Below, piece by piece: positions 17,294 to 32,085 of a stretch of 64,000 nucleotides of DNA; position 1 is the stretch's first letter, and each line of letters starts with the position of its first letter. The position numbers and the translations under genes are program-made. Source of the stretch: a virus; the IMG/VR virus record IMGVR_UViG_3300013132_000025, positions 62,001 to 126,000 of that record; one strand, given 5' to 3'. A model generated the notes under the pieces. That model worked only from the letters and a program-made list of their open reading frames with translations. It was not told where the DNA came from and did no database searches.

Positions 17294-17296
17294 CGT

Positions 17297-18558: not shown

Positions 18559-18591
18559 GATGCTGTCTCCTTGGTCGGTTGCTGCTAGGGC

Positions 18592-18962: not shown

Positions 18963-19030
18963 TGGTGTCTCCTCGTCGTTGCTCATGGTGGGGAGCATAT
19001 CACGGATGGAGGGCGGGGCATAGGCCCCGT

Positions 19031-19546: not shown

Positions 19547-19583
19547 GATTGTCTCCTGTTGGATAACTAACTAACTCGGAACT

Positions 19584-19613
19584 TTAGCAGATGAATAACT
19601 ATCTATCTGCTAA
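19584..19613 (-). terminator. Hairpin terminator candidate
   Basis: Inverted repeat TTAGCAGAT / ATCTGCTAA around a 12-nt loop, behind the small zinc-ribbon gene. The following sequence (AGTTCCG) is only weakly T-rich. Confidence 0.45.
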
Positions 19614-19660
19614 CCATCTAAACGATGATAAAGTCCATCGAAGTAACCATCTTGCCCTCA

Positions 19661-19834
19661 TCAGTCGCTCCACTCATCCTCGTCACCGACACACTCAACG
19701 CACCAATAGACCTCATGGTACTCGTTTGTACCGGCATCTAGTATCAGACCGGGGAGGCGGTTAGCCCATAACCCGGAACCGGGAGCCGTGGACTTTCCGC
19801 ACTCCACACAGTCATCAAACGTCTTGTTACTCAT
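19661..19834 (-). CDS. Small zinc-ribbon protein, 57 aa
   Basis: Two CxxC pairs (DCVECGK near residue 9 and WCVECVGDE near residue 45) make a four-cysteine zinc ribbon. The AAAGGAGATGAG ribosome site is strong. It has its own composite promoter. Role unknown; such micro zinc ribbons often bind nucleic acids or partner proteins. Confidence 0.65.
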   Translation of the reverse strand: MSNKTFDDCVECGKSTAPGSGLWANRLPGLILDAGTNEYHEVYWCVECVGDEDEWSD

Positions 19835-19865
19835 CTCATCTCCTTTGTTTGACTAGTGCCCCGGT

Positions 19866-19907
19866 ACCGTATCAGGAAAGTACCGGGGCACACAAGTCCT
19901 CGTTTAT
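19866..19907 (-). promoter_or_regulatory. Composite promoter with long inverted repeat
   Basis: ATAAAC box (19902-19907), 6 bp, TTGTGT (19890-19895), 18 bp, TACGGT (19866-19871). Inverted repeat arms GTGCCCCGGTAC / GTACCGGGGCAC enclose the spacer, making a hairpin or operator. Confidence 0.7.
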
Positions 19908-20114
19908 TTAGTCTGAGATAATCCACTCAAAGCCAGCGTACTCAGCGGCCACCTCTGCTTCCAGCAGACCCGCGATGCCAGCCCGACCATGGCCCTCAGC
20001 CATCCAGCGAGTCGCCCACTCAACGGCGTCCTGTTCCAGCAGGAACGGACCAATGACGTTCATCTGGCCTCGGTACGACTCGGTAATGACACTCCACCAC
20101 AGAACCTCGTCCAT
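19908..20114 (-). CDS. Hypothetical protein, 68 aa
   Basis: The protein MDEVLWWSVITESYRGQMNV ... EYAGFEWIISD starts at ATG 20114 after AAGGAGGCTGTG. The longer frame to 20324 is antisense-like GC artefact. Aromatic-rich with an alpha/beta pattern; no family assigned. Confidence 0.65.
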   Translation of the reverse strand: MDEVLWWSVITESYRGQMNVIGPFLLEQDAVEWATRWMAEGHGRAGIAGLLEAEVAAEYAGFEWIISD

Positions 20115-20140
20115 CACAGCCTCCTTTGTAGGCAGTTGGT

Positions 20141-20497
20141 TTAGACGCCCCACTCGGTCAGACGACCGTTGGGCTTCTCCGGGGTGCGAACCTGCACCTC
20201 GGGGTAATACACCTCGTCCGTCTTGGTGTCCACGATAGCGACGACCATCCACACACCCTGACCATCGGGGTCCACCACAGAGTCGTAGGCGGTCGTTTCG
20301 GCGTACCCAGCGGCCTCGTCCCACTCCTCGTAACCGTCGTACAATACATCGAAGTCCCCACCCTTGACCACGGCGATGAAGCGATACAGGTCGCGGTCGC
20401 CATTGTAGAAGCCAGCGTCAGCGGGACCACGCCGGGGGTCGCCAAAGGCGTTCGTGATGCGGTCCACAACCTGCTCGGTGTCAATCTCGGTACTCAT
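20141..20497 (-). CDS. Hypothetical protein, 118 aa
   Basis: Acidic protein with MSTEIDTEQVVDRITNAFGD and a repeated VD-rich strand pattern (YDSVVDPDGQGVWMVVAIVD). AAGGAGATTCTG fixes the start at 20497. A composite promoter with perfect spacing lies upstream. Unknown function. Confidence 0.68.
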   Translation of the reverse strand: MSTEIDTEQVVDRITNAFGDPRRGPADAGFYNGDRDLYRFIAVVKGGDFDVLYDGYEEWDEAAGYAETTAYDSVVDPDGQGVWMVVAIVDTKTDEVYYPEVQVRTPEKPNGRLTEWGV

Positions 20498-20528
20498 CAG
20501 AATCTCCTTGTTTGATTGGTGCCTAGGC

Positions 20529-20569
20529 AGCATAAAGGGATGCTGCGCGAGATACAAGGCCTCGTTTAG
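20529..20569 (-). promoter_or_regulatory. Composite promoter
   Basis: CTAAAC box (20564-20569), 6 bp, TTGTAT (20552-20557), 17 bp, TATGCT (20529-20534). The -10 lies inside a small inverted repeat GCAGCAT / ATGCTGC. Confidence 0.75.
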
Positions 20570-20820
20570 ATGGCCTCAGCAAGTCTAGCGAATAGAAGGT
20601 GGTTTCCGTAAACACCACTCTCACCATCAAACTGCTGGTGGTCCTCCATGCCCACAAAGAGGCTCTCTCCATCAGGCTCTACAAACACCGTGTATGAAGC
20701 GTCAGTCTCGTACTCGTCCCCATTCTCGTCAAAGTAAACGACGGGGAAAGAGATATGGACGTACACTCCCTTATCGTTCTTGACGGTGTAAACGTCGGGG
20801 TCAGCAATCTCAGAACTCAT
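20566..20820 (-). CDS. Hypothetical acidic protein, 84 aa
   Basis: The protein MSSEIADPDVYTVKNDKGVY... is strand-rich and acidic. Start 20820 follows AAAGGGAGATACC; the frame to 20922 overlaps the next gene. No domain recognised. Confidence 0.65.
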   Translation of the reverse strand: MSSEIADPDVYTVKNDKGVYVHISFPVVYFDENGDEYETDASYTVFVEPDGESLFVGMEDHQQFDGESGVYGNHLLFARLAEAI

Positions 20821-20837
20821 GGTATCTCCCTTTCTCT

Positions 20838-21365
20838 TTATGCGCGGGTGCGAAGGTATCGCACTCGGTCCCTTGCCCACTTCCGGCGAGCCTCGGTGAA
20901 CGGATAGCCGTTCTCTATACAATCGTCCAGCATCGTCAGAACCTTACTCTCGTCGGACCCCGTTTGTACCGCGAGGTCATGAATCATGGTGCGAGCGATA
21001 GAGAGGTCGTTCGCGTTCTGCTCCTTGGCAAGCCTGCGGCTCTCAACACGCTTCTGCTGCTGCGCCTGCTTGATTAGACGCTTGGCCTCATCCTTGACCT
21101 GACCAATAAGGTGCTTGTTTGCACCGAGGAAAGTCTGGATGCAGTTTGAGCCTGCGATGAGGTCGCCCCCATTCTCGGAGTCGGACAGGTGGAACTCGTA
21201 ACGAATCCCACCATGCCCGCACACCTCGCAGGTCGTGTAGTTGCCGGGGCCACGGTCCACAGCATGAACAAGGTGGAGCCGGTGAGCGTCCTGCTCGTTC
21301 TCGGGGACTCCGATGCCCTCAAAGAAGTCCTTGATGCCGCTTGCCTGTCGCTTGGTGAACTCCAT
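20838..21365 (-). CDS. Cysteine-containing hypothetical protein, 175 aa
   Basis: Contains CEVCGHGGIRYEFHLSD and GSNCIQTFLGANK, giving a CxxC plus single cysteine zinc-site candidate. A long basic helical region follows (DEAKRLIKQAQQQKRVESRR), then a C-terminus rich in Arg. The AGGAGATACC ribosome site is strong. The pattern suggests a DNA- or RNA-binding protein; the family is not identified. Confidence 0.68.
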   Translation of the reverse strand: MEFTKRQASGIKDFFEGIGVPENEQDAHRLHLVHAVDRGPGNYTTCEVCGHGGIRYEFHLSDSENGGDLIAGSNCIQTFLGANKHLIGQVKDEAKRLIKQAQQQKRVESRRLAKEQNANDLSIARTMIHDLAVQTGSDESKVLTMLDDCIENGYPFTEARRKWARDRVRYLRTRA

Positions 21366-21440
21366 GGTATCTCCTCTTTCGTAGATGCCCTAGCATCGTA
21401 TCACAGAAAGAATGAATAACCAACTAACCGTTTGTACGGC

Positions 21441-21761
21441 CTACTCCTCTACCAGAACCTCAATGCTGATTTCGTGGAGCGTGCCGCTCTTGGTGTTGTA
21501 AACGGCATCAGGTCGCCACAGACCTTCCCACATGGACTCAGCGACAGTCCATTTCACCGAATCTAGCGAGCGATGCATCGTAAACCACACCTCACGTTCT
21601 CCCGGCTTAGTCTCCACCAGAAGCCATGGACGCTCCTGTTGAGTAGCAACATCATTACGAAGGTTATCCCAATCAACATCGTGGAAGTTGTATTCGGAGA
21701 TAGCGTCCCGAATGACCTCGTTCGTAATCTGAATGTCCTCGGGGAGAGAACTAATGCTCAT
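21441..21761 (-). CDS. Hypothetical protein, 106 aa
   Basis: Contains a tryptophan-rich middle (RPWLLVETKPGEREVWFTMH and VAESMWEGLW). Its start overlaps the end of the previous gene by 11 nt. Unrecognised family. Confidence 0.65.
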   Translation of the reverse strand: MSISSLPEDIQITNEVIRDAISEYNFHDVDWDNLRNDVATQQERPWLLVETKPGEREVWFTMHRSLDSVKWTVAESMWEGLWRPDAVYNTKSGTLHEISIEVLVEE

Positions 21762-21948
21762 CGGAATCCTCCTCGTTTACACGCAACGTGACATAGCCAG
21801 CCTCAATGAGAGCGGCAGCCATGCGACCATAAGAACCTTGGAGCGACCAAGCCATCCCGGTGTCCACAAGGTACTGAAAGAGGTCAATGATGCCATCCTC
21901 ATCCAACTCACCCTGCTCATACTCCATAATCGAACTGACGTAATCCAT
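21751..21948 (-). CDS. Hypothetical protein, 65 aa
   Basis: Acidic N-terminus (MDYVSSIMEYEQGELDEDG) followed by FQYLVDTGMAWSLQGSYGRM. Similar short proteins ending in a 'GSYGR...A..LI..G' helix are common in actinobacteriophages and have no known function. AAAGGAGGCAGAA gives start 21948. Confidence 0.68.
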   Translation of the reverse strand: MDYVSSIMEYEQGELDEDGIIDLFQYLVDTGMAWSLQGSYGRMAAALIEAGYVTLRVNEEDSDEH

Positions 21949-21976
21949 TTCTGCCTCCTTTATCACTTGCCCTGTA

Positions 21977-22017
21977 AGTGTACCGGGTCTATCCATCTAA
22001 TACAACTATCTGTTTAT
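21977..22017 (-). promoter_or_regulatory. Composite promoter
   Basis: ATAAAC box (22012-22017), 6 bp, TTGTAT (22000-22005), 17 bp, TACACT (21977-21982). Confidence 0.75.
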
Positions 22018-22022
22018 TCGAC

Positions 22023-22238
22023 CTACCACTCAAAGCGAGTGGATAGAATCTTGTGGTCAGGAAACAAACAACGAACCTGCTCAGTAGCGCGGTCCATCAT
22101 CTCAACGATGATACCCTCGTCACTTAGGTCTGACCAAACGTAGTCAAGCGTGTCCTCATTCTGCTCGGTCAGCGAAGCCTCATAAACAAACTCGTCAGGC
22201 TCACCCGACTCGCTAATCATCTCAACAATAACGAACAT
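22023..22238 (-). CDS. Hypothetical protein, 71 aa
   Basis: Acidic ferredoxin-like pattern (MFVIVEMISESGEPDEFVYE ... CLFPDHKILSTRFEW). It abuts the stop of the upstream 114-aa gene with no gap, so the pair is co-translated. No family name can be given. Confidence 0.65.
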   Translation of the reverse strand: MFVIVEMISESGEPDEFVYEASLTEQNEDTLDYVWSDLSDEGIIVEMMDRATEQVRCLFPDHKILSTRFEW

Positions 22239-22583
22239 TTAGATGCGCTCCTCGCTCATAGACTCTCGGTGAACTCGCTCAACTTCCTGCTCAGTCACCC
22301 AAGCATAGAAACTCTCTCGGGACTCCTCCTCGGCCTCAGCCTGAGCAAGAATGTCCTTCCATTCCTCGGAGTCTGTGACATAGGACTCAGCATCAACGTC
22401 AGCAGAATACTGTCGCTGTGCAGCCTCGGCCATACCAATGCGATACTCAGCCCACAGGCTAAGAGCCTCGTCCAGAATAACGAACTGCTCAACGGTCAGG
22501 TCGCCGTTTACAGTCAGGTCGTCAAGGCGGTGGTACAGAGTAGTCGCCTTATCCTGAATCTCTACAGTATCGTCGTGCATCAT
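22239..22583 (-). CDS. Hypothetical helical acidic protein, 114 aa
   Basis: Mostly helical and acidic (MMHDDTVEIQDKATTLYHRL, then DILAQAEAEEESRESF). It is the first gene of a two-gene unit behind one of the clearest composite promoters; AAAGGAGATAG gives the ribosome site. Unknown function. Confidence 0.65.
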   Translation of the reverse strand: MMHDDTVEIQDKATTLYHRLDDLTVNGDLTVEQFVILDEALSLWAEYRIGMAEAAQRQYSADVDAESYVTDSEEWKDILAQAEAEEESRESFYAWVTEQEVERVHRESMSEERI

Positions 22584-22613
22584 GGTTCTATCTCCTTTCG
22601 TGCTTGCTCGTCA

Positions 22614-22655
22614 AGCATACAGACTTGACTCTCAAAGCGCAAGTGCCTGTTTATA
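22614..22655 (-). promoter_or_regulatory. Composite promoter
   Basis: TATAAAC box (22649-22655), 6 bp, TTGCGC (22637-22642), 17 bp, TATGCT (22614-22619). Confidence 0.78.
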
Positions 22656-23019
22656 CCACTTCCCACTCGTTAGGAAACCAATGCGAGGCAACTTGCATCT
22701 CTCGCTTCCACGAACGCTCCTCCTCCACACACTCAGAGAATCGCTCAATGATGAGCAGACCCATCGCAATCAAGTCCTTCTCATCTGTATCAATCTGGTT
22801 CATGGTGCAGTATGAAGCATCCTCGGCATACTCCCAATCGCCATTCTCTCGCGTGAGGACCGTAAACCTCAGCAGAGGCTCGTCAGTAGGGTCCGTGGGG
22901 TCGAAGTCCCCATACCAACCCTCACCGATGTAATCCCACTCAACCTTGACAGTCCCATCATCGTTAGTTGCAGTAATGGGAATAAACGACTCAATGTTGT
23001 CAGTCCAATCCTTCATCAT
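22651..23019 (-). CDS. Hypothetical acidic protein, 122 aa
   Basis: Very acidic, strand-rich N-terminus (TVKVEWDYIGEGWYGDFDPT) and a helical centre (DEKDLIAMGLLIIERFSECV). It follows the TM protein by 6 nt. Acidic surface proteins of this size in phages are often DNA mimics or inhibitors; that is only a possibility here. Confidence 0.65.
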   Translation of the reverse strand: MMKDWTDNIESFIPITATNDDGTVKVEWDYIGEGWYGDFDPTDPTDEPLLRFTVLTRENGDWEYAEDASYCTMNQIDTDEKDLIAMGLLIIERFSECVEEERSWKREMQVASHWFPNEWEVV

Positions 23020-23025
23020 TTCCTC

Positions 23026-23190
23026 CTAATGTCCGTAGTGGTCGGGGTGACTCATTCGATACTTGGCCTCCTGCTTCATATCTGAGATACAAGTCGCATC
23101 ACAGCGAATGGGGAAACCCACAGTCACCACCTTATAGATAAGCACGCTCAGAATGACAGAGAGCGAAGCGTACAGCATAAACTTCCACAT
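23026..23190 (-). CDS. Single-pass membrane protein, 54 aa
   Basis: An N-terminal hydrophobic helix (MWKFMLYASLSVILSVLIYK) precedes a short tail with two cysteines (RCDATC). ATG overlaps the TGA of the upstream gene. Found by direct reading because it is below usual length limits. Confidence 0.6.
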   Translation of the reverse strand: MWKFMLYASLSVILSVLIYKVVTVGFPIRCDATCISDMKQEAKYRMSHPDHYGH

Positions 23191-23357
23191 CACTTCCCCT
23201 TCCATTGGGTATAAGTCCCGGTTATCTCCTCGTAGATATCGAAAGGCTCGTCAAGTGTGTGCCCCGCATCATCTCGGTAGCCACAGTCGTCGTTGCTTCC
23301 AACATCGCAAGCAAGATAACATGCGAGACCTCGGAAGTAGTAGTCAGGCTCTAGCAT
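23190..23357 (-). CDS. Hypothetical acidic protein, 55 aa
   Basis: The protein MLEPDYYFRGLACYLACDVG ... TQWKGK contains three cysteines in the first half. It overlaps the next gene by 1 base and has a GGGAGATGAATAAAC leader. Unrecognised. Confidence 0.58.
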   Translation of the reverse strand: MLEPDYYFRGLACYLACDVGSNDDCGYRDDAGHTLDEPFDIYEEITGTYTQWKGK

Positions 23358-23359
23358 GT

Positions 23360-23503
23360 TTATTCATCTCCCTTCCAGATAGACCATTCCTCGCCCAACT
23401 CCCACTCACTACTGGGAGCCTCGCAAGCGAGGTCAAGTGCCGCATCCTTACTGTCTGCCTCAATCTCAATATACGCATCAGTTCTGATAATGTAAAGGGG
23501 CAT
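23360..23503 (-). CDS. Hypothetical protein, 47 aa
   Basis: A short ferredoxin-like strand-helix-strand unit: MPLYIIRTDAYIEIEADSKD, a helix with ALDLACEAP, then SEWELGEEWSIWKGDE. It has the same fold pattern as the 56-aa gene just upstream (MPVYTLTWTETQMLQTQVEV), suggesting tandem duplication. AGGAGGTATAAAC leader. Confidence 0.62.
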   Translation of the reverse strand: MPLYIIRTDAYIEIEADSKDAALDLACEAPSSEWELGEEWSIWKGDE

Positions 23504-23505
23504 GT

Positions 23506-23676
23506 TTATACCTCCTTCACATCAAGGTCGTTGCCATAGATGAAGTCAATGATGGAGGCGTCCTCGGTGCCTACGCGACCCTTAGTAAACAACTCCTTGG
23601 CCTCATCAGCACTATTCACCTCAACCTGAGTCTGCAACATCTGAGTCTCAGTCCAAGTAAGAGTATAAACGGGCAT
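23506..23676 (-). CDS. Hypothetical protein, 56 aa
   Basis: Starts MPVYTLTWTETQ, then a strand and acidic helix (VNSADEAKELFTKGRV). Probable paralogue of the following 47-aa gene. An alternative ATG lies one codon upstream. Coupled to the upstream gene by an ATGATG overlap. Confidence 0.62.
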   Translation of the reverse strand: MPVYTLTWTETQMLQTQVEVNSADEAKELFTKGRVGTEDASIIDFIYGNDLDVKEV

Positions 23677-23891
23677 CATGCCACCTCCTCGGGATAGCCA
23701 GCCTGAGAACGAATAGAATCAATCATTGACTCTAAACGCTCAACATGCTTCTTATCGTCAGCGTTGTCATAAACATCGTGGAACGGTGAGTCCAGAATCT
23801 CCTGAATATTCTGCCCCAAAGTCCAGAGAATGTAATCCACATCCTCAACGGGACCGCTAATGGTAAGAATGTTCTGGCACCAACTAGACAT
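23676..23891 (-). CDS. YubB/Api92-like small protein, 71 aa
   Basis: The N-terminus MSSWCQNILTISGPVEDVDY matches the 'WCxNxLTIxGP' opening of the DUF1281 (YubB/Api92) ferredoxin-like domain common in plasmids and phages. It is shorter than the typical family member, lacking most of the second half. Biochemical role unknown. Confidence 0.65.
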   Translation of the reverse strand: MSSWCQNILTISGPVEDVDYILWTLGQNIQEILDSPFHDVYDNADDKKHVERLESMIDSIRSQAGYPEEVA

Positions 23892-23894
23892 TCT

Positions 23895-24221
23895 CTAATC
23901 CTCCCACTCGTCGTCGTCCTCGTTGTCCATCTCGTAGTCGAACTCAACGATGAGGCGAGCCACACGACCATCCCTGTCATACTCAACGTACACAGGATAA
24001 ACGCCATCGCCCCAGCCGGTGCTAGTGCAGACAGCATCCGAGAAACGACCATTAGTAGCGAACTGACCAGCACGCTCGTCGTTCAGACTAGCCGCACAGG
24101 CGCGACCATAAGGGGAGTCATCGTCCCACTCACCGTCAAGGACATAGCAGGGGTCCACCACGAACACCTGTCCAGAGTCCACCGGGACAACGCCCACCTT
24201 CACTCGGGTATTACTCGTCAT
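23895..24221 (-). CDS. Hypothetical protein with 'VDPCY' motif, 108 aa
   Basis: Contains VVPVDSGQVFVVDPCYVL and a Gly/Trp turn (STGWGDGVYPVYVEYD), a pattern that recurs in many phage and bacterial proteins of unknown function. The tail is strongly acidic (DYEMDNEDDDEWED). AAGGAGGCTAAC leader and its own composite promoter. Confidence 0.68.
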   Translation of the reverse strand: MTSNTRVKVGVVPVDSGQVFVVDPCYVLDGEWDDDSPYGRACAASLNDERAGQFATNGRFSDAVCTSTGWGDGVYPVYVEYDRDGRVARLIVEFDYEMDNEDDDEWED

Positions 24222-24250
24222 TGTTAGCCTCCTTTATTGCTTGCTCGTCA

Positions 24251-24290
24251 AGTGTACCAGAACTGATTGTCCAATACTACTGCTCGTTTA
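24251..24290 (-). promoter_or_regulatory. Composite promoter
   Basis: TAAAC box (24286-24290), 6 bp, TAGTAT (24274-24279, weaker -35), 17 bp, TACACT (24251-24256). Confidence 0.65.
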
Positions 24291-24474
24291 CACGGTCCCT
24301 CTGTGCAACGACGGCTTGGAGAATGTCATACACCTCTCCCTCGTCATAGACCTCGGAGAGAGCCTGCCTCTGCTCATCTGTCACCTCGTCCTCACCCACA
24401 ACGATAAGGTCGTCCTCGTCGCAGCCACCCCAACTGCCGTCTGCTGCGCTCATCCAGATAATCCGACGACCCAT
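24277..24474 (-). CDS. Hypothetical acidic protein, 65 aa
   Basis: The protein MGRRIIWMSAADGSWGGCDE... contains a long acidic helix (DEVTDEQRQALSEVYDEGEV). It follows the 86-aa gene by 2 nt. No family recognised. Confidence 0.62.
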   Translation of the reverse strand: MGRRIIWMSAADGSWGGCDEDDLIVVGEDEVTDEQRQALSEVYDEGEVYDILQAVVAQRDRVNEQ

Positions 24475-24476
24475 GA

Positions 24477-24737
24477 CTAGGCCTCCCGGATAAACGTAGA
24501 GAGCGTGTCAATCAGAGCCTCGCGCTCCTCGGCGGTGTCGGGAAGGGGAATCACAATCGTTCCCACGTTCGTCTTGGGGCCACCAACGACGTTGGACTCC
24601 ACGATGATGTTTAGACGACCACCGACGATGGGGAAAACCCCAACCTCGTAGATACGAACGAAGTCGGTGGTGCCGTGGTCGCGCTCAACCTTATAGGTGT
24701 AAGGCTTGGTCTGCTCCTCTGCTGCCTTGCCAATCAT
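24477..24737 (-). CDS. Hypothetical protein, 86 aa
   Basis: Strand-rich centre (GVFPIVGGRLNIIVESNVVG) and a C-terminal acidic helix (DTAEEREALIDTLSTFIREA). Overlaps the upstream gene by 4 nt (ATGA). Unknown. Confidence 0.65.
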   Translation of the reverse strand: MIGKAAEEQTKPYTYKVERDHGTTDFVRIYEVGVFPIVGGRLNIIVESNVVGGPKTNVGTIVIPLPDTAEEREALIDTLSTFIREA

Positions 24738-25168
24738 CTTGCCTCCTTGTATGTCTCGTTGTAAAAGTCCACCATAATCCCGCGATACTTCCGCTCAATG
24801 ATGGTGCTTGCAACATCATACACCACCTCAACGAAAGAATCGCTAAGGGCGTTTGTACGGTCAAACCAGAACGGAAGGTACTCGTCCATCAGAACGTCCA
24901 ACAGTTGCGTCGGGAGAGGAAAGAACAGGTCGTAGTAAGGGCGCTGACCGTCCCAATACTCCCAAGCCGTCTTAGCGAACACACGACCGACATACTCAGG
25001 GTCATTTCCATTTCCGTAGATGGCAACCCCATGAATGCTCTGGTCAAACGGGTCCACATAAGGCGAAAAGTTTATACCAGCATCGCATTCCACGGTCTCC
25101 TGTAAGGTCTCGCGGAAGTCCTGCTCTACGAACCTCTCGGTCTTGATACGCTGCTCGGCATCACACAT
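24734..25168 (-). CDS. Hypothetical protein, 144 aa
   Basis: The protein MCDAEQRIKTERFVEQDFRE... shows an alpha/beta pattern with FFPLPTQLLDVLMDEYLPFW. ATG 25168 overlaps the preceding stop as TAATG, which decides the start over an in-frame GTG three codons upstream. No recognised domain. Confidence 0.65.
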   Translation of the reverse strand: MCDAEQRIKTERFVEQDFRETLQETVECDAGINFSPYVDPFDQSIHGVAIYGNGNDPEYVGRVFAKTAWEYWDGQRPYYDLFFPLPTQLLDVLMDEYLPFWFDRTNALSDSFVEVVYDVASTIIERKYRGIMVDFYNETYKEAR

Positions 25169-25332
25169 TAGTCCCACCCATTTACACGGGCCGACTGCTT
25201 GGCCTGACGGCGCTCGGTGCGACGGCTCTTGTTGCCATGAACCTGAGAGCGAGGAACAGCAATCCCTGTGTGACCAGAGATGCCAAGTTCCTGCCTCATG
25301 GCTCGGCGTTGCTTGTTGGTAAGGTTTCTCAT
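25168..25332 (-). CDS. Small basic protein, 54 aa
   Basis: Strongly basic (MRNLTNKQRRAMRQELGISG ... HGNKSRRTERRQAKQSARVN), likely nucleic-acid binding. A similar basic micro-protein lies at 29509-29628. It is directly behind a composite promoter and starts with a GGGAGATAAG leader. Confidence 0.62.
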   Translation of the reverse strand: MRNLTNKQRRAMRQELGISGHTGIAVPRSQVHGNKSRRTERRQAKQSARVNGWD

Positions 25333-25359
25333 CTTATCTCCCTTGATTGATGCCTAGGC

Positions 25360-25400
25360 AGCATACATCATAAGACTGACTAGAACAAGTGCCTGTTTAT
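25360..25400 (-). promoter_or_regulatory. Composite promoter
   Basis: ATAAAC box (25395-25400), 6 bp, TTGTTC (25383-25388), 17 bp, TATGCT (25360-25365). The box overlaps the stop codon of the upstream gene. Confidence 0.75.
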
Positions 25401-25603
25401 TTGATAAACTCATTCACAAGTTCGTTGAGGTCAATCTCGTCAATCCAATAACCGTACGAGCCTAGATACTGACCAGCAGCGTCGTAAACAGATGCACTAC
25501 TGCCACCTCCATCGAACTAAACGAGTTCCAAAACCTGTTGAGGGTCGTCCTCGGAATGAACGTAAACGTGAGTAGCCTCAAACTCAGAGTAAGTAAAAGC
25601 CAT
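25397..25603 (-). pseudogene. 68-codon gene interrupted by an in-frame amber codon
   Basis: From ATG 25603 (AAAGGAGAAAGACA leader) the frame reads MAFTYSEFEATHVYVHSEDD...LELV, meets TAG at 25519-25517, then continues FDGGGSSASVYDAAGQYLGS to TAA at 25397. Both halves have protein-like content in one frame, so this is one gene with a nonsense change, most simply TAC to TAG after Val. The TAG sits in a CGTTTAG copy of the TAAAC box. Alternatives are programmed readthrough or a 28-residue product. TAG is a normal stop elsewhere in the window, so genome-wide recoding is unlikely. Confidence 0.6.
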
Positions 25604-25615
25604 TGTCTTTCTCCT

Positions 25616-26092
25616 TTATCCGTACACCACACTACCGAAAGCGGCAACCTGCACAATGCAGTCAGCCGCATCGCCGTCAATCATGCCGGGGTCGTTCTCC
25701 TGCACGGCACGACGAATGTAGCCGGTGATGGTGTTATTTGCCATATGACTGTTCTCATCCAGAAACTTCTGGATGGCCTCGGTGATGTTGGTGGCGTTGA
25801 TGGTGTAAACATTGACCTCGCCACTACCCTCATCACGCTCAACAATGTCGGTGACAGTAACCTGCTGCCAGCGTTCGAAACCATCCGGGGTCTCAGCCTT
25901 CTTAGCAACAAGGTTATTCAGTTCCGCCCAATAGTAGCAGACACCATAAGAGCCATCGAAAGCACTCACAAGAATGCAATCAACCATAGCCTCGGTGATA
26001 GGAAGTTGCGTGGTGACAACGCCAACAACCTTAGAGTTGTCGTACATCTCAGCCTCGGCTTCCAGCATCTCCCTCACATATGGGTCAGACAT
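25616..26092 (-). CDS. Hypothetical protein, 158 aa
   Basis: Starts MSDPYVREMLEAEAEMYDNS and shows a strand-helix pattern with SEMVDCILVSAFDGSYGVCY-like centre and a C-terminal GDAADCIVQVAAFGSVVYG that repeats the same D-CI-V-AFGS theme. GGAGAAACACA decides the start over the frame to 26143. Has its own composite promoter. Function unknown. Confidence 0.66.
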   Translation of the reverse strand: MSDPYVREMLEAEAEMYDNSKVVGVVTTQLPITEAMVDCILVSAFDGSYGVCYYWAELNNLVAKKAETPDGFERWQQVTVTDIVERDEGSGEVNVYTINATNITEAIQKFLDENSHMANNTITGYIRRAVQENDPGMIDGDAADCIVQVAAFGSVVYG

Positions 26093-26124
26093 TGTGTTTC
26101 TCCTTTCGTAGTTCATCTGAATAG

Positions 26125-26165
26125 ATGATATCAAACAGACCAACTCAGCACAAGAAAGTGTTTAT
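26125..26165 (-). promoter_or_regulatory. Composite promoter
   Basis: ATAAAC box (26160-26165), 6 bp, TTGTGC (26148-26153), 17 bp, TATCAT (26125-26130). Confidence 0.75.
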
Positions 26166-26169
26166 ACGA

Positions 26170-26448
26170 CTAGGCGCTAAACATCTGATGGTAATGCTCC
26201 TCGGGGGTGAGGATGTTTAGGCCGTAACGAAAATGACCGGGACCAAACCAGATTGGGTTACGGTACTCATCACTCATACGATGCCGCCGATAGTCATTCC
26301 AGATAGTCGCCGGGTGACTCCACAACTCGCAAACGTAATCCTCAATGTCATGGTAGTTTACACTATCCATAGAGATGATGTATTCCTCTACGAAATCCCA
26401 GAACAACTCATCAGACCTACCATCATATCCGCCAGCAACGTAAGCCAC
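26170..26448 (-). CDS. Hypothetical protein, 92 aa
   Basis: GTG start after GGAGAGGAGAGATT. The protein contains SDELFWDFVEEYIISMDSVN and an aromatic, His-rich end (EEHYHQMFSA). It is 34 nt downstream of the tRNA-like element and may be co-transcribed with it. Unrecognised. Confidence 0.65.
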   Translation of the reverse strand: MAYVAGGYDGRSDELFWDFVEEYIISMDSVNYHDIEDYVCELWSHPATIWNDYRRHRMSDEYRNPIWFGPGHFRYGLNILTPEEHYHQMFSA

Positions 26449-26482
26449 AATCTCTCCTCTCCTATAAACTTGTTGATAAAAG

Positions 26483-26582
26483 CACCCCTAGCGGGAGTCG
26501 AACCCGCGATAAACCTCCGCATAAACATCACAAGCGTCCTTGTGAATGTCCCGGCGTCGTTGCCATCTAGACCATTAGGGGC
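26483..26582 (-). tRNA. tRNA-like element, 100 nt, abnormal anticodon arm
   Basis: The 7-bp acceptor stem GCCCCTA/TAGGGGT (one G-T pair) and the T arm GCGGG-TTCGACT-CCCGC are perfect, and a D-like arm GTC-TAGATGGCAAC-GAC is present. No CCA is encoded. The centre does not form a normal anticodon stem. Instead ACATTCACAAG-GACG-CTTGTGATGT folds into a roughly 10-bp hairpin. Two GTTTAT boxes lie in the 3' half. It could be a tRNA with an insertion in the anticodon loop, a degenerate tRNA, or a tRNA-like RNA with another role; no isotype is assigned. Confidence 0.5.
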
Positions 26583-26884
26583 CACATTATAGACGGTTCC
26601 ACACAGGGGCTTGATGCTCCTAAAAACAATGCCTCTGCCGTCACCGACAACCGAACCCTTAGTTAGTTTATACACAGATGGCCCCGAGCGACGGCTAGTT
26701 CTTAGATGGTGCCGAATAACACCACGCTCATCTATGTATGTTTAGACTGCTTATCATTTATGGCTCTCGCGCTCATCGTCCCACAATGGTTGATGAGATT
26801 TCCCGACCTACCAATCGGTTTCTTACGGAGATTCCTCCACCCCACTAGGTCAAAGGTGGTAGCCCTCGCCTAGTCGGTCGTGAA
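26583..26884 (-). ncRNA. Structured non-coding stretch between ribozyme and tRNA-like element
   Basis: About 300 nt without a credible gene. Several short complementary pairs are visible on the minus strand: ACTAGG/CCTAGT, GGAG-GAAT-CTCC, CCGA/TCGG and GGTG-TTATTCGG-CACC. It would be the 5' part of the RNA left after ribozyme cleavage. No known RNA family is recognised. Confidence 0.4.
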
Positions 26885-26936
26885 AGCCGTTGATGCCCGT
26901 AGGCATTTCGTCCTCTAAGGACTCATCAGAACGGCT
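26885..26936 (-). ncRNA. Type I hammerhead ribozyme
   Basis: All conserved parts are present in order: stem I strand AGCCGTT, core CTGATGA, stem II GTCC-TTAGA-GGAC, GAAA, stem III TGCC-TACG-GGCA, then T-C and stem I return strand AACGGCT. Stems I (7 bp), II (4-5 bp) and III (4 bp plus the A15.1-U16.1 pair) pair perfectly. Cleavage is expected after C at 26892 (an AUC site, within the NUH rule). The ends lie in stem I, so this is the type I permutation. It starts 5 nt after the stop of the 49-aa gene, in its 3' UTR, and upstream of the tRNA-like element. Confidence 0.9.
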
Positions 26937-26941
26937 AAAAA

Positions 26942-27091
26942 CTACAGTTCTATCGTGGAAGCACCATCAGTCTGCAACTCCATGACCCACCCCTCACGCC
27001 ACTCATTTATAGCACAAGCCTCACCAAAAGACGCATAAGGACCGAAAGCGGTATATCCATCTGAAAGATTACCAGCGAGAAAGACAAACAT
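26942..27091 (-). CDS. Small protein upstream of the hammerhead, 49 aa
   Basis: The protein MFVFLAGNLSDGYTAFGPYA ... QTDGASTIEL starts after a strong AGAGAGGAGTAAGA leader. The first strand, acidic/aromatic loop and helix (FGEACAINEWREGWVM) resemble other short ferredoxin-like accessory proteins here. Its TAG stop is followed almost immediately by the ribozyme, so its mRNA would receive a defined, terminator-free 3' end. Confidence 0.68.
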   Translation of the reverse strand: MFVFLAGNLSDGYTAFGPYASFGEACAINEWREGWVMELQTDGASTIEL

Positions 27092-27119
27092 TCTTACTCC
27101 TCTCTTTGATTACTCTACG

Positions 27120-27147
27120 AGAATACCACCTCGGCTCAGAAAGTCAA
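27120..27147 (-). promoter_or_regulatory. Promoter of the ribozyme-containing operon
   Basis: TTGACT (27142-27147), 16 bp, TATTCT (27120-27125), 29 bp before the 49-aa gene. A reversed box (AATAAAC read on plus) lies near 27152-27158. Confidence 0.7.
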
Positions 27148-27395
27148 GAGCCTGAATAAACGTAGGATATCTGAGCCTCTACCTCATCAGCATGACGCTC
27201 ATCAAGAAACCGATTGTCCGGTGCGCCCCATATGCTCTGCCCCATGATGTTAGAAGCCGCAGCCTTGGAAGCATCCAGAAGCGAAGTCACTAGAGACATA
27301 GCATCCTTTGGGTCCATACGAAGTATAAACCCGTTACGTTCGTTACCTGAATGGATAACTACTTCATCTTTGTAAACCGCAACAAACAAACTCAT
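27144..27395 (-). CDS. Hypothetical protein, 83 aa
   Basis: The protein MSLFVAVYKDEVVIHSGNER... is a strand-rich N-terminus followed by a helix with DAMSLVTSLLDASKAAASNI. The frame reaches 27425, but 27395 matches the usual promoter-to-start distance. Ribosome site weak. Unknown family. Confidence 0.6.
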   Translation of the reverse strand: MSLFVAVYKDEVVIHSGNERNGFILRMDPKDAMSLVTSLLDASKAAASNIMGQSIWGAPDNRFLDERHADEVEAQISYVYSGS

Positions 27396-27431
27396 ACCGT
27401 TGCCTCGTCTATCTGCTTGCCACACACCTAG

Positions 27432-27460
27432 ATACTACAGGCCCCCTCCCCCAATGTCAA
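27432..27460 (-). promoter_or_regulatory. Promoter, consensus -35
   Basis: TTGACA (27455-27460), 17 bp, TAGTAT (27432-27437). The spacer is GC-rich and, with the sequence upstream, can fold into a CCCCCT/AGGGGG hairpin that would end the upstream transcript. Confidence 0.65.
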
Positions 27461-27478
27461 GGGAAGGGGGCAAGGTGT

Positions 27479-27976
27479 TTAGATGGCAGCGCCCATGAAG
27501 TCCTCATTCGGCACCTCAACAACACCACCGACAATCTCCACCTCCACAAAGGCGGGGACAGGCTCGGAAAAAGAAGCGGTGGTAGCCTCGCCGGTCAGCA
27601 CCTTAGCAACCTTGTCCAGCCTGTCACGAAGGGCCTTGTTCTCAGCCTCCACAGCCTCTAGACGCTGAATAAACGAGATGCTAACAGTCTCATCATCCAT
27701 AGACTCGCTAATCTTGCCCTCAATAATCCACTCAACGCGAGTGTCGAAGTCCTCAATGTCGTCGGACTCAAAGGTGCGCCAACGCAGCGCCTCCTCAATC
27801 TGGTCTGAGATATCAAGGTTGTTGTCAAGGTATTCCTGAACACGACCGTCAATATCTGCCTCATCAACGACATTCTCAGCAACATCTCGGATAAACGACT
27901 CGTTGTTGTAAACCGCATCGGCGGCCTTCTCATCAACGAGGGTCTCAATGTCAGCGGGCCAATCCTCAAAACTCAT
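27479..27976 (-). CDS. Hypothetical acidic coiled-coil protein, 165 aa
   Basis: Starts MSFEDWPADIETLVDEKAAD and is acidic. A C-terminal heptad segment (FIQRLEAVEAENKALRDRLD) predicts a coiled coil, and a hydrophobic strand-rich tail follows (AFVEVEIVGGVVEVP). AAAGGAGATACC gives the start. Possibly a scaffold or adaptor; family unknown. Confidence 0.66.
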   Translation of the reverse strand: MSFEDWPADIETLVDEKAADAVYNNESFIRDVAENVVDEADIDGRVQEYLDNNLDISDQIEEALRWRTFESDDIEDFDTRVEWIIEGKISESMDDETVSISFIQRLEAVEAENKALRDRLDKVAKVLTGEATTASFSEPVPAFVEVEIVGGVVEVPNEDFMGAAI

Positions 27977-28040
27977 GGTATCTCCTTTAGTTGATTGCTT
28001 CCTGAGAAGCATAGCATGGGGTGTTGCAGAAAAGCAACTG

Positions 28041-28445
28041 CTAGTGTAAACGCTCAGGCTCGTCCAAAGACTCCTCTAGGGAGAGGCGAGCGGTAGTGAG
28101 AGCCGGTGGCTCGTAATCAGTCCCGTAGCCGCTTACGCTAAGAGTAGCGTTGATAAGAGCGCGAATCTCGTCCTCGTACAGATAGAAAGGAACCTGCCCC
28201 TCATCCAAAACTTCCTCCCACTCCTCACTAATGAGCGACAAAGACACTATCTGCTCAATGTTGAGCATTACCTCATACTCAGGAGCAGAACGGATAAACG
28301 TCTTTCGTGCTTTGATAGTCTGCAACGAAGTAACGTGATTGGCGAAGTCCCTCAATCTATGCGCGCCATTCTTGTCGTTGCCCCAACCACTATAAAGAGT
28401 CTGTCCATCAGTTGTGCGAATCTGAATGTAACTCGTCTTGCTCAT
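28041..28445 (-). CDS. Hypothetical protein, 134 aa
   Basis: Opens with a strand pair (MSKTSYIQIRTTDGQTLYSG) followed by a basic helical part and an acidic end. It abuts the upstream 55-aa gene with one base between ATG and stop. Unrecognised. Confidence 0.65.
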   Translation of the reverse strand: MSKTSYIQIRTTDGQTLYSGWGNDKNGAHRLRDFANHVTSLQTIKARKTFIRSAPEYEVMLNIEQIVSLSLISEEWEEVLDEGQVPFYLYEDEIRALINATLSVSGYGTDYEPPALTTARLSLEESLDEPERLH

Positions 28446-28613
28446 CTAAACCTCCACCTCAATGTTGTTAGCCGCACCACGAACATCCCATCCGTAGTAC
28501 CCCTCAATCATAGAAGCGGCCTCATCAATAATGTCATCTCGCTCTCCCGAAGGGGGCGTGATGATTGCAGTAGAAAGAACAAAGTAGTCTCCCACAAAGG
28601 TAACAGTAGTCAT
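28446..28613 (-). CDS. Hypothetical protein, 55 aa
   Basis: The protein MTTVTFVGDYFVLSTAIITP, a helix with DDIIDEAASMIEG, then WDVRGAANNIEVEV gives another strand-helix-strand micro-protein. It begins next to the stop of the 92-aa gene, sharing a GGAGGACAAGTAA leader. Confidence 0.62.
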   Translation of the reverse strand: MTTVTFVGDYFVLSTAIITPPSGERDDIIDEAASMIEGYYGWDVRGAANNIEVEV

Positions 28614-28892
28614 TTACTTGTCCTCCTCTCGGACCCAAAAAAAGTATTCCTCAATCTCCACAAGGTTGTCTGTTCCACAGTATAGGTCGTAAATCGCAAG
28701 ATTCCTTGCTTCCAGATTGTCAGCCGCCGATGCAGGGCTGTCGTCATACTCCTTGAGAAACAAATCAAGCGCAAACAAACGCGCTTGCTTCCAGATATAA
28801 TCACGAGCATCCATCTCGTTATCAAAAGAACGGACTCCCCAATCATCCTCAGAATGAGGAACTGCTCCGATATAGTTCCATCCTGCCAGCAT
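28614..28892 (-). CDS. Hypothetical protein, 92 aa
   Basis: The protein MLAGWNYIGAVPHSEDDWGV has helices rich in aromatic and acidic residues (DYIWKQARLFALDLFLKEYD). AAAGGAGGCGGA fixes the start six codons inside the open frame. A composite promoter lies upstream. Unknown family. Confidence 0.66.
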   Translation of the reverse strand: MLAGWNYIGAVPHSEDDWGVRSFDNEMDARDYIWKQARLFALDLFLKEYDDSPASAADNLEARNLAIYDLYCGTDNLVEIEEYFFWVREEDK

Positions 28893-28925
28893 TCCGCCTC
28901 CTTTGGTCAATCAACTTACACGAAC

Positions 28926-28966
28926 AGACTATCAGACTGCCTTGGACAGCACAAGTCCCTGTTTAG
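28926..28966 (-). promoter_or_regulatory. Composite promoter
   Basis: CTAAAC box (28961-28966), 6 bp, TTGTGC (28949-28954), 17 bp, TAGTCT (28926-28931). Confidence 0.75.
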
Positions 28967-29310
28967 TCGTCGTAGTCGCAGGGAAAAGACTCCTTCTCCA
29001 AGTGATAAAGGTAGTCTCCACGGTCTGCTAGGTAGTCGTCATAGTCAGCCTCAGCCATCTCACAACAGGTATCAAAAGTGAGTTCCATAGGAGTCCAGAA
29101 GTCTCCATCCTCCTTCTCCCCATGCACCTCGGTAATCATGCGGTATTCCTCCATGACCTCTTGCTCGGTGCCGATGAAGTATGGGATTTCATAGTCCTTG
29201 ACTATCTTGCCTGTCTCCGGGTCTGTCTCGTACAAACCCCACAGGCCCTTATCCGAGATTTCCTCGGCCTGCTTCTGGAAAGCGTACTCAGGCGGGTCAT
29301 ACCATGACAT
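28963..29310 (-). CDS. Hypothetical acidic protein, 115 aa
   Basis: The protein MSWYDPPEYAFQKQAEEISD ... HLEKESFPCDYDD is acidic and tyrosine-rich. The start overlaps the TAA of the zinc-ribbon gene (TAATG), which decides 29310 over the longer frame. No family recognised. Confidence 0.66.
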   Translation of the reverse strand: MSWYDPPEYAFQKQAEEISDKGLWGLYETDPETGKIVKDYEIPYFIGTEQEVMEEYRMITEVHGEKEDGDFWTPMELTFDTCCEMAEADYDDYLADRGDYLYHLEKESFPCDYDD

Positions 29311-29483
29311 TACAGATTCTCCCTTGGAACGGGTACACACTTGGGGCAAAATGGAAGCCCCCCGGCCCAAGTTATTGCCTTGGTTGCTGGGTTGATAAAC
29401 ACCACATTATCCTCATTTACGATGTGACCACACATACACTTGATTGTGTCAGTTGCGGTATCTTTACTTATATTATCCATCAT
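29310..29483 (-). CDS. Small zinc-ribbon protein, 57 aa
   Basis: Two cysteine pairs (CMCGHIVNEDN and FCPKCVPV) about 30 residues apart indicate a zinc ribbon. Two ATGs in a row open the frame after AGGAGAGGAGAGTTAG. Coupled to the next gene by TAATG. Confidence 0.64.
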   Translation of the reverse strand: MMDNISKDTATDTIKCMCGHIVNEDNVVFINPATKAITWAGGLPFCPKCVPVPRENL

Positions 29484-29508
29484 CTAACTCTCCTCTCCTT
29501 ACCTTATC

Positions 29509-29628
29509 TTACCGGGCGTGCCAAAAGTTAGGCTTAGGCACGTTGGTCTTGTGAGGCTTGCTTACCCCCATCTTGGTAGCGCGAACCTTGCGGCGCCTGT
29601 TAGTAACCGAACGACGAACTTTCTTCAT
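29509..29628 (-). CDS. Small highly basic protein, 39 aa
   Basis: The protein MKKVRRSVTNRRRKVRATKM ... FWHAR has about a third basic residues and almost no acidic ones; probably binds nucleic acid. AAAGGAGACAAC leader and a near-consensus promoter upstream support it despite its size. Confidence 0.6.
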   Translation of the reverse strand: MKKVRRSVTNRRRKVRATKMGVSKPHKTNVPKPNFWHAR

Positions 29629-29668
29629 GTTGTCTCCTTTGATTGGTGTCTATCTTACTTACCGTGTA

Positions 29669-29697
29669 ACTCTACCACCTAACTCACATCAAGTCAA
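29669..29697 (-). promoter_or_regulatory. Promoter without TAAAC box
   Basis: TTGACT (29692-29697), 17 bp, TAGAGT (29669-29674). No TAAAC box at the usual distance, unlike most promoters in this block. Confidence 0.65.
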
Positions 29698-29871
29698 ATC
29701 ATCGTCGTCATATTCATCTATAACTATAAACTCTCGGACAAACATAAGCAATATCCCTGAAACAATAGCCCACAAACCCGCGTTCCAATCTCCCGAGAAA
29801 AAGTAATAGGCCCCGAAAAAGAAACACACAAGACCAACAAACAGGGATAGGATTCTAACTAACTCAGTCAC
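29689..29871 (-). CDS. Two-TM membrane protein, 60 aa
   Basis: Two hydrophobic helices (VRILSLFVGLVCFFFGAYYF and WAIVSGILLMFVREFIVI) with a hairpin between them and a very acidic tail (DEYDDDDLT). Starts inside the end of the upstream gene. Unknown function. Confidence 0.65.
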   Translation of the reverse strand: MTELVRILSLFVGLVCFFFGAYYFFSGDWNAGLWAIVSGILLMFVREFIVIDEYDDDDLT

Positions 29872-30163
29872 TCTTGACTATCTCTTTCCATACAAGATAT
29901 GCTGCTTTGCTTGCGTTGTCCAGACGAGACCACCTTTCCCTATAGAACCTTACCTTTGTCTGAATAGCATGGTAAGACTCCATTTGTACCTCTACCCGGA
30001 GAACATCTTTACTACCGGGGAAGTCAGGAACCTTGGGCTTTCGGATGATGCTTGCAACATCCTTTGCCACAAGGTATTCCCGGTGAGCCTCATTGGAACG
30101 ACGAGAGATTACCTTCCACGCCCTATAGAACAGTTCTGCATTCTTTGGGCTAGGCTCGGACAT
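29864..30163 (-). CDS. Hypothetical helical protein, 99 aa
   Basis: The protein MSEPSPKNAELFYRAWKVIS is helical and basic, with a Trp/Arg-rich C-terminal part (FYRERWSRLDNASKAAYLVW). Start 30163 is chosen over 30190 because it matches the overlap with the previous gene. No family recognised. Confidence 0.6.
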   Translation of the reverse strand: MSEPSPKNAELFYRAWKVISRRSNEAHREYLVAKDVASIIRKPKVPDFPGSKDVLRVEVQMESYHAIQTKVRFYRERWSRLDNASKAAYLVWKEIVKSD

Positions 30164-30929
30164 AACGAGTACCTCGGCGCTCTCCCTCAATGTTTACACG
30201 CTCATCATTCTGTAGGACGTAACGAACACTCGTCCACTCGGTAGTTGAGAGGCCGAAATGCAAGATGAGTTCGGCCTTAGAAGTCGGCCCATTGTCCTCA
30301 ATAAACTGCACAATGACATTCATCACTTCTGTATCAACAGTCGGCGTCTTGTCCTCAATAACCACTTCATAAGTTCGGCCCGGAACTGTGTAGTTGGTCC
30401 CACGCTTAGTCCCGTTCTTTACTACCTTACCAGACTCAACAGCGGCATTGATTACATCTGAATAAATAGACGCGGGGATAAGGTCTCCAATAGCCTTCTT
30501 GGTTACAGGCTGGTCTGCCTCCTCAACAAAGCGAATAAACTCGTCACGCACCTCGGAGATACGCTCGGCCTTCTCATCGCTCTGCCTACGACCGGGCTTG
30601 TAACGAAGCACACGGCCATACTCATCAACAGGTGCCCCGCGTGCAATCGCGGCTTGGTCTGCACGCTCCTGACACTTAGAAATCCACCCCTCCAAATAAT
30701 CCTCACGGTGCTGCACAGCCTCGTCCTTGGGGAGAGAACGAAGCAACTCCATACGATTGTCGTGAACCTCGTTTAGTTCACCGAAGGGTAGAGTAATCCT
30801 GTCGTTGTCGGATGTAAGAATAGTTGCTTCCTTATCCTGCGCTGCAAGAACAAGAGCGTATCTAAATCCACCCTCGCTGCTCCAAAAACTGATTGTATCG
30901 CCACGAACCGGCGCTTCTTTAGTCTGCAT
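30150..30929 (-). CDS. Putative DNA-binding protein with two winged-helix-like units
   Basis: The 259-residue protein has an N-terminal strand-rich domain, an Arg-rich linker, and two similar C-terminal units: FVEEADQPVTKKAIGDLIPA...GTNYTVPG and FIEDNGPTSKAELILHFGLS...RGTRYVRA. Each ends in a G-T-x-Y turn as in a winged helix. The AAAGGAGGGAGATGAT leader before ATG 30929 is the best ribosome site; the frame continues 22 basic codons further. Likely a regulator; target unknown. Confidence 0.6.
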   Translation of the reverse strand: MQTKEAPVRGDTISFWSSEGGFRYALVLAAQDKEATILTSDNDRITLPFGELNEVHDNRMELLRSLPKDEAVQHREDYLEGWISKCQERADQAAIARGAPVDEYGRVLRYKPGRRQSDEKAERISEVRDEFIRFVEEADQPVTKKAIGDLIPASIYSDVINAAVESGKVVKNGTKRGTNYTVPGRTYEVVIEDKTPTVDTEVMNVIVQFIEDNGPTSKAELILHFGLSTTEWTSVRYVLQNDERVNIEGERRGTRYVRA

Positions 30930-31008
30930 ATCATCTCCCTCCTTTGGCTGAATATTACGCTTGCTCAGTTTGCTGCTTGCTCGCTTCTTACCCATATAAG
31001 TTACCTAC

Positions 31009-31233
31009 CTAACTATTCGTTGTCAAGGCCTCATCGAAAATCGCGTTTAGACTGTCTGCGATAATATCGCGCTCCTTGGTCAGACACGGCGAACATTGAG
31101 CCTTGGGGTTATACCGAGAGAGGCGGGCATCGCATCGGGTACAATGCCGCGCCTCCGCAGGCTTATCATCTACAAAGTCGAAGGGCACCATATCACCCAT
31201 CATGTTTGCAGGAATAATCTCATCAAATCGCAT
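31009..31233 (-). CDS. Small zinc-finger protein, 74 aa
   Basis: The protein contains HCTRCDARLSRYNPKAQCSPC, a CxxC-x12-CxxC zinc site, and a helical C-terminus. Similar zinc-finger proteins are often labelled DNA-binding in actinobacteriophages. First gene of a short unit; strand consistent with neighbours. Confidence 0.66.
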   Translation of the reverse strand: MRFDEIIPANMMGDMVPFDFVDDKPAEARHCTRCDARLSRYNPKAQCSPCLTKERDIIADSLNAIFDEALTTNS

Positions 31234-31242
31234 AATGGCTCC

Positions 31243-31500
31243 TTAGAAAGACTCGGGGTACCAAGTCGAAAGAACCGAGATAATCTGGTTGAGAGAGAAA
31301 GAACCGAACTGATGGTCGGTAAATGCCTCAGTCTCAGTAATGTCCTCAACCTTCCAATCCTGCTTACGCCCACGCTTACCCGTACCGTGGATACGAAAGC
31401 GCCCGTCCTTGGACTCATAGAGTCCCGGCTGGACACGATGAATAGCGCGAGTACGCGGGCGACCCCGGCCCTTCTTAGTCTCAACAGTTGCAGTAGTCAT
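31243..31500 (-). CDS. Small basic protein with AT-hook-like motif, 85 aa
   Basis: The N-terminus TVETKKGRGRPRTRAIHRV contains GRGRPR, the core of an AT-hook, and a second basic patch follows (GTGKRGRKQDW). AAAGGAGATGCAT sets start 31500. A TTGCAT-17-TAAGTT promoter lies upstream. Likely binds DNA minor groove; not proven. Confidence 0.62.
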   Translation of the reverse strand: MTTATVETKKGRGRPRTRAIHRVQPGLYESKDGRFRIHGTGKRGRKQDWKVEDITETEAFTDHQFGSFSLNQIISVLSTWYPESF

Positions 31501-31594
31501 ATGCATCTCCTTTAGGTCGTATTGACGTTGTACCAAGTAACTTATCACAGGTACTATAGAGATGCAAGTGTATATGTAATATTATTGCGGGGGA

Positions 31595-31650
31595 GTATAA
31601 ACGCTGACAGCATATAAATCCCGACATAATGGGGGCGTATAAACGCTGAC
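31595..31650. repeat. Two 14-bp direct repeats containing the TAAAC box
   Basis: GTATAAACGCTGAC occurs at 31595-31608 and again at 31637-31650, 42 bp apart (four helical turns), directly behind the stop of the 144-aa gene. Confidence 0.8.
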
Positions 31651-32085
31651 CTACGAAAGTTCATCGTCAAGAGGCGGGGCGTCGGGGATAGAGCGGATAA
31701 ACTCCTCAACCAACGCTTCTTCTTGCTCACCGACCTTTTCATCCACGCGCTTTTTAAACTCACTTACCCGTGACTGATATTCCTCGGGGAAAAGCGACTG
31801 CATCTGCTCAATAGAAATAATAATAGTCGCCATGGCGCTGGCAAAGTCAGAAAGAGATGATACAACGGTGCGCCCATTTGGCGTTTCCACAATCTCTGCC
31901 AACTCATCTGGGGGAATCTTTGACATTCTTACGTCCACCTCTGAACCAAGGGCGCTAAGGAGGTTGTGAATACCCTCAATGACCACAATCGCCATATCTT
32001 CCATGGTCATTTCTTTGGCGATTTCCCAATTTGCATTGACAATCATTCTTAGTTTGTCAGGCATATCATTGTTTTTATTATGCAT
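31651..32085 (-). CDS. Hypothetical helical protein, 144 aa
   Basis: Almost entirely helical with hydrophobic periodicity (MAIVVIEGIHNLLSALGSEV; ATIIISIEQMQSLFPEEYQS) and an acidic C-terminus (DAPPLDDELS). No family recognised. It belongs to the AT-richer right part rather than the GC-rich block. Confidence 0.66.
   Translation of the reverse strand: MHNKNNDMPDKLRMIVNANWEIAKEMTMEDMAIVVIEGIHNLLSALGSEVDVRMSKIPPDELAEIVETPNGRTVVSSLSDFASAMATIIISIEQMQSLFPEEYQSRVSEFKKRVDEKVGEQEEALVEEFIRSIPDAPPLDDELS

Follow-up and report, generated by a model that had tools for sequence, protein, structure and literature searches.

Many hammerhead ribozymes, a large number of them near prophage genes, have been described, and a function in transcript processing was suggested for them (Perreault 2011, PMC3088659). 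The theta ribozymes of gut phages have been proposed to process the 3′ trailers of tRNAs (Kienbeck et al. 2024, PMC10879173). Here we analysed a 64,000-nt stretch of viral DNA (IMG/VR record IMGVR_UViG_3300013132_000025, positions 62,001 to 126,000; hereafter the window), which carries a type I hammerhead on its minus strand and, downstream of it, a tRNA-like structure (TLS). As judged from the sequences, the ribozyme motif is conserved in related phages, co-occurs with the TLS, and is found with it at two gene addresses. With moderate confidence, we read the hammerhead as the element that forms the 5′ end of a 342–410-nt phage noncoding RNA, the 3′ end of which the TLS would make or guard. 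The new part is the setting of the ribozyme, not the ribozyme itself.

The hammerhead and its conservation in related phages

The ribozyme and the gene upstream of it comprise the following features.

26885–26936, minus strand: type I hammerhead ribozyme, 52 nt, predicted cut between C26892 and A26891 (held-out covariance model, core nucleotides and three stems, conservation)
26936–26930 and 26891–26885, minus strand: hammerhead stem I (7 bp), AGCCGUU/AACGGCU
26929–26923, minus strand: hammerhead core, CUGAUGA
26922–26910, minus strand: hammerhead stem II, GUCC(U) UAG (A)GGAC, GUCCUUAGAGGAC between CUGAUGA and GAA
26909–26907, minus strand: hammerhead GAA
26906–26893, minus strand: hammerhead stem III, AUGCC UACG GGCAU, AUGCCUACGGGCAU between GAA and C17
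26892, minus strand: hammerhead C17, predicted cleavage at 26892/26891
26942–27091, minus strand: 49-aa open reading frame (ORF), stop at 26942, 5 nt before hammerhead stem I

Three helices are present, with stem I open and stems II and III closed by loops, which is the type I arrangement. All core positions of the hammerhead (C3, U4, G5, A6, N7, G8, A9, G12, A13, A14, A15, U16, and H17; Perreault 2011, PMC3088659) were found in the window sequence (CUGANGA ... GAAA ... UH). The initial annotation had reported a complete ribozyme here, 5 nt after the stop codon of the 49-aa gene; reading of the minus strand bore out its coordinates, the AUC triplet, and the predicted site at 26892/26891, and the spacing agrees with the stop at 26942 and stem I from 26936. 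A covariance model (R1) was trained on 56 other phage hammerheads, leaving out the window and the related locus L128. The training sequences were pattern matches subsequently picked for their stems, so their own pair statistics are biased towards structure; the independent test is the held-out score. The window hammerhead, with all its core nucleotides and three stems, scored 61.2 bits (E 9.1e-16; 173 kb searched). As to a possible tertiary contact between loop II and stem I, loop II of the window carries the U..A that most of the 56 phage hammerheads have (U in 40/56, A in 45/56).

By its sequence, the segment 26936–26885 of the minus strand qualifies as a complete hammerhead of type I, a further case of a class already known from phages. 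Self-cleavage is predicted, and the held-out score makes a chance origin of the motif very improbable. A chance or decayed, inactive motif is the least probable explanation that we considered: activity is predicted from the sequence, while the held-out E value of 9e-16 and retention in relatives with compensatory changes speak against it. No second hammerhead was detected in the 129.6-kb contig by R1 up to E 10. At the gathering score, which is a curation threshold and not a biochemical property, no Rfam family was found in the window. At relaxed thresholds, RF00008 (type III) matched the window hammerhead weakly (21.9 bits, E 0.07), and RF00163 gave the hammerhead of the relative L241 28.5 bits, below the cut-off of 34. 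Rfam's own models are less sensitive for these hammerheads than the phage-trained model.

Alignment of the portal protein yielded 80 loci, and 37 records were scanned for the hammerhead. In L128 and L129 (portal 96%), a hammerhead lies at the matching place; compared with the window, C-G replaces U-A once in each of stems I and III, N7 is changed, and the loops differ. N7, where any base is allowed, is the only core position that changes among the relatives. A strong hammerhead (63.9 bits) was found in G003 and G004 (portal 86%), three further records gave weak matches of 16–20 bits, and the rest gave none; ten named cousin phages also lacked a hammerhead. The cassette is represented by three lineages (the window; L128/L129; G003/G004), over which 96% of the cells in hammerhead pairs are paired, with two compensatory pairs, versus 31–55% in slid controls.

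The strong hammerhead and the TLS were present in the same four records (G000, G001, G003, and G004), and 41 others had neither. The order of the cassette is the same in the three lineages: hammerhead, structured 5′ domain, conserved block, TLS. The cassette of G004 is preceded by a gene that matches window positions 26056–25619 and followed by genes that match 29453–28966, so its neighbours are not those of the window cassette. The DNA of the TLS and the conserved block is 88% identical, and the flanking proteins are 29–67% identical. It is mainly the presence of the same partner at a different gene address that leads us to treat the hammerhead and the TLS as one unit.

The tRNA-like structure and the RNA that precedes it

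Downstream of the predicted cut, three further features were delineated.

26761–26891, minus strand: structured 5′ domain of the 3′ cleavage product (alignment and fold), with a long invariant tract in common with L128
26583–26662, minus strand: conserved block (AAGG..UCGGUUGUCGGUGACGG ... UGUGGAACCGUCUAUAAU), RNA structure or promoter
26482–26582, minus strand: TLS, ~100 nt (covariance model R2, 121 bits in the window; fold and alignment)

The tRNA-like element mentioned in the initial annotation proved real; it begins 309 nt downstream of the predicted cut and is not a standard tRNA. The TLS has an acceptor of 7 bp (GCCCCUA/UAGGGGU), a hairpin resembling a D arm, and a T arm of canonical form (GCGGG UUCGACU CCCGC), and in its acceptor and T arm it conforms to a tRNA. 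The anticodon position is occupied in all three lineages by a long hairpin with a GACG loop, with no seven-base anticodon loop, and CCA is not encoded. Model R2, built from the three lineages, scored 116–133 bits in the four cassette-bearing records only, among 45 records, while ordinary tRNAs reached at most 39 bits. The TLS starts at nucleotide 310, 251, and 292 of the product in the three lineages, and it is too conserved for its pairs to vary much, so that covariation says little about its fold. A DNA pattern search for the TLS returned nothing beyond the contigs of those records and the L128 record of 31.8 kb, and no TLS patterns were found in bacterial genomes. When the 5′ domain, the TLS, and the L241 product each served as queries against annotated phage DNA, only T-arm matches to tRNAs and weak chance matches came back. 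An ORF on the minus strand (26675–26388) was dropped as a coding candidate: it runs through the TLS, its GSTPARG being the T arm, and no equivalent ORF is listed in L128.

Lacking an anticodon loop, the TLS is unlikely to decode. A genuine decoding tRNA, long or intron-bearing, with the hammerhead trimming its precursor, is an alternative: ARAGORN reported a tRNA-Cys(aca) in L240/L241/L072 and, with introns allowed, an intron-containing tRNA-Val(cac) in the window. These two results conflict in amino acid and structure, no standard tRNA was found at the TLS in the window at default settings, and the GACG-closed hairpin stands at the anticodon position in every lineage; we consider this explanation improbable. 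A precedent for it is a type I hammerhead in L022 (IMGVR_UViG_3300045973_000170, 5902–5866, minus strand), whose predicted cut falls immediately before nucleotide 1 of a tRNA-Tyr, so that the 3′ strand of stem I is also the 5′ strand of the acceptor; there, the hammerhead could be standing in for RNase P. Eleven tRNA genes lie elsewhere in the contig of the window.

A degenerate transfer-messenger RNA (tmRNA), with its 5′ end now made by the hammerhead, is less probable still. The product size of 342–410 nt and the T arm, which matches that of tmRNA, would suit it, and distant cousins carry tmRNAs of 411–437 nt that score above the cut-off, as against sub-threshold matches only in G001 and the window phage. 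The acceptor stem is closed locally, spanning ~100 nt and not the whole RNA, and beyond the T arm there is no convincing alignment to tmRNA. In a comparison of the TLS with Rfam up to E 10, the tmRNA family RF00023 was the only match, at 18.5 bits with a cut-off of 47 and confined to the T arm, and a full tmRNA was dropped. The cousins with tmRNA genes are W03, W06, W08, and W09, which are records of Bixzunavirus and Phrappuccinovirus.

The ribozyme and the region downstream of it align between the window and L128 over 178 bases at 87%, and the ~131 nt after the hammerhead are highly conserved. Within this predicted 5′ domain, one hairpin covaries between the two (CUCAUC/GAUGAG to CCUAAC/GUUAGG), and a predicted helix, P1 (GGCUUUC/GAGAGCC), overlaps the 3′ strand of hammerhead stem I. 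Folding z-scores relative to shuffles were −4.7 in the window, −5.2 in L128, and −3.3 in the G003/G004 lineage (L241). The predicted pairing of the product 5′ end was 0.87, 0.87, and 0.86 in the three lineages; in the phage hammerhead set, the median is 0.42 and the 90th percentile 0.71. No Rfam family matched the 5′ domain, either at gathering or at E up to 10. A plus-strand ORF over the 5′ domain (26706–26873), with a shorter counterpart in L128, is unlikely to be a gene; the changes follow the RNA pairing, as judged by eye.

Proposed formation of RNA ends, or separation of mRNAs

The following route would account for the cassette. A leftward polycistronic transcript would run through the 49-aa gene, and the 52-nt hammerhead, as it emerges, would cleave in vivo at 26892/26891. 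The upstream mRNA would then end ~50 nt past its stop codon, and the downstream RNA would begin with a 5′-OH. After cleavage, the released stem I strand may refold into P1; this refolding would make religation harder and leave the 5′ end protected. The TLS may be recognised by the tRNA-maturation machinery, with RNase P acting at 26583/26582 and RNase Z near 26482, whereby the 3′ end would be formed or protected. The product would be an RNA of ~410 nt in the window (342 and 388 nt in the other two lineages), or an RNA of ~309 nt plus the TLS. On sequence evidence, the proposal in the initial annotation that one RNA would end and another begin at the hammerhead appears to be the best-supported mechanism, and it is strengthened by the relatives, in which the structured RNA downstream and the TLS still accompany the hammerhead.

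The position of the ribozyme directly after a gene can also be explained by generic mRNA separation, the main rival. Here, the hammerhead would cut a polycistronic transcript after a gene, and the adjoining TLS would be an independent gene with its own promoter. The L128 homologue of the 49-aa ORF has 70 aa and its stop lies inside the hammerhead, in loop II; the upstream ORF of L241 likewise terminates within the hammerhead. An ORF of at least 45 codons with its stop within −60..+30 of the core accompanies 101 of 122 phage hammerheads, as compared with 29% at random control positions, and in 22 of the 122 the stop codon is the core's own UGA. These positions imply that cutting directly after a gene is a general habit, and processing of long phage transcripts has been proposed (Perreault 2011, PMC3088659). 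Promoter-like sequences before the TLS in L128 and L241 (TTGACT-16-TATAAT) also favour separation. It leaves unexplained the pairing of hammerhead and TLS at two gene addresses, their joint absence elsewhere, and the strongly structured interval between them, and in the window the −35 element is not kept. We regard generic separation as less likely than the noncoding-RNA reading.

Several observations weigh against formation of a noncoding RNA by the hammerhead and the TLS. The sigma70-like sequence in L128 and L241 matches a promoter at 11 of 12 positions and lies directly before the TLS, which could be transcribed separately from it; in the conserved block of the window, the −10 element is kept. 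The 5′ domain of L241, though structured, is not homologous to that of the window and has no obvious sequence in common with it. In folding of the growing transcript (window, L128), stem I stays in the minimum-energy fold until ~90–110 nt past the cut, and P1 then competes. The uncleaved full-length minimum-energy fold of the window retains stem I, and the L241 folds alternate back and forth, which makes a switch from stem I to P1 suggestive only. The covariation count of the hammerhead does not exceed that of shuffles (reached by 123 of 500, with three sequences). All carriers belong to one clade, and co-occurrence may partly reflect common descent. Cleavage in vivo, the RNA ends, RNase P and RNase Z processing, refolding, and stability are points that we infer.

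A pattern scan of viral contigs returned at least 120 stretches with hammerheads; the initial annotation, which described hammerheads in phages as known, with few of them functionally understood, understated how common they are. Arrays of 3–6 type I hammerheads lie between small genes in L017, L029, L036, L056, L081, L105, L109, and L112. Hammerheads with stem I CUGUCU/AGACAG occur in L010, L058, and L080, and also in L013, L064, and L114, several of them near tRNA genes; the downstream sequence resembles another structured RNA in the first three and is a gene leader in the last three.

The contig encodes a portal, large terminase, tail sheath, exonuclease, and DnaE polymerase, and its portal matches those of Mycobacterium, Gordonia, and Rhodococcus phages at ~40%. 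With protein probes, no viral relatives of the 49-aa and 92-aa neighbour products were found, and two were found for the 281-aa product. Over the small ORFs of window positions 12000–32000, the G+C content rises to ~0.65 and falls to 0.43 (~0.40 elsewhere); it is also raised (0.47–0.52) in the matching part of L129.

Comparison with known ribozymes and tRNA-like RNAs

The window hammerhead has a definite partner, kept at a second genome address, and this makes a specific job, supplying a stable noncoding RNA with its 5′ end, directly testable by RNA end mapping. If true, the known phage RNAs would gain one that ends in a tRNA-like fold. We put forward only tentatively a modular class of phage noncoding RNAs with a hammerhead 5′ end, a non-decoding TLS at the 3′ end, and an exchangeable structured domain between them. 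A search that lay mostly outside the subscription literature turned up no paper in which a hammerhead stands at the head of a phage RNA ending in a tRNA-like structure.

The TLS shares its acceptor and T arm with tRNA and tmRNA (RF00023), and differs from them in that it has no anticodon loop and no encoded CCA, and its acceptor closes over ~100 nt; no tag frame was noticed. The theta ribozymes, which are hepatitis delta virus (HDV)-like (PMC10879173), resemble the window case as a phage self-cleaving class found beside a tRNA-type element, with a proposed part in RNA end processing. They belong to another ribozyme class and are proposed to act on tRNA 3′ trailers, whereas in the window a hammerhead lies ~300 nt upstream of a TLS without an anticodon loop. 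The closest relatives are the type I hammerheads of phages and prophages (RF00163; PMC3088659), which share the core, the order of the stems, and an open stem I with the window ribozyme, and likewise lie near an upstream stop codon in a phage setting. The window ribozyme is not one of an array between small genes but a lone copy, placed ahead of a predicted structured noncoding RNA whose end is tRNA-like.
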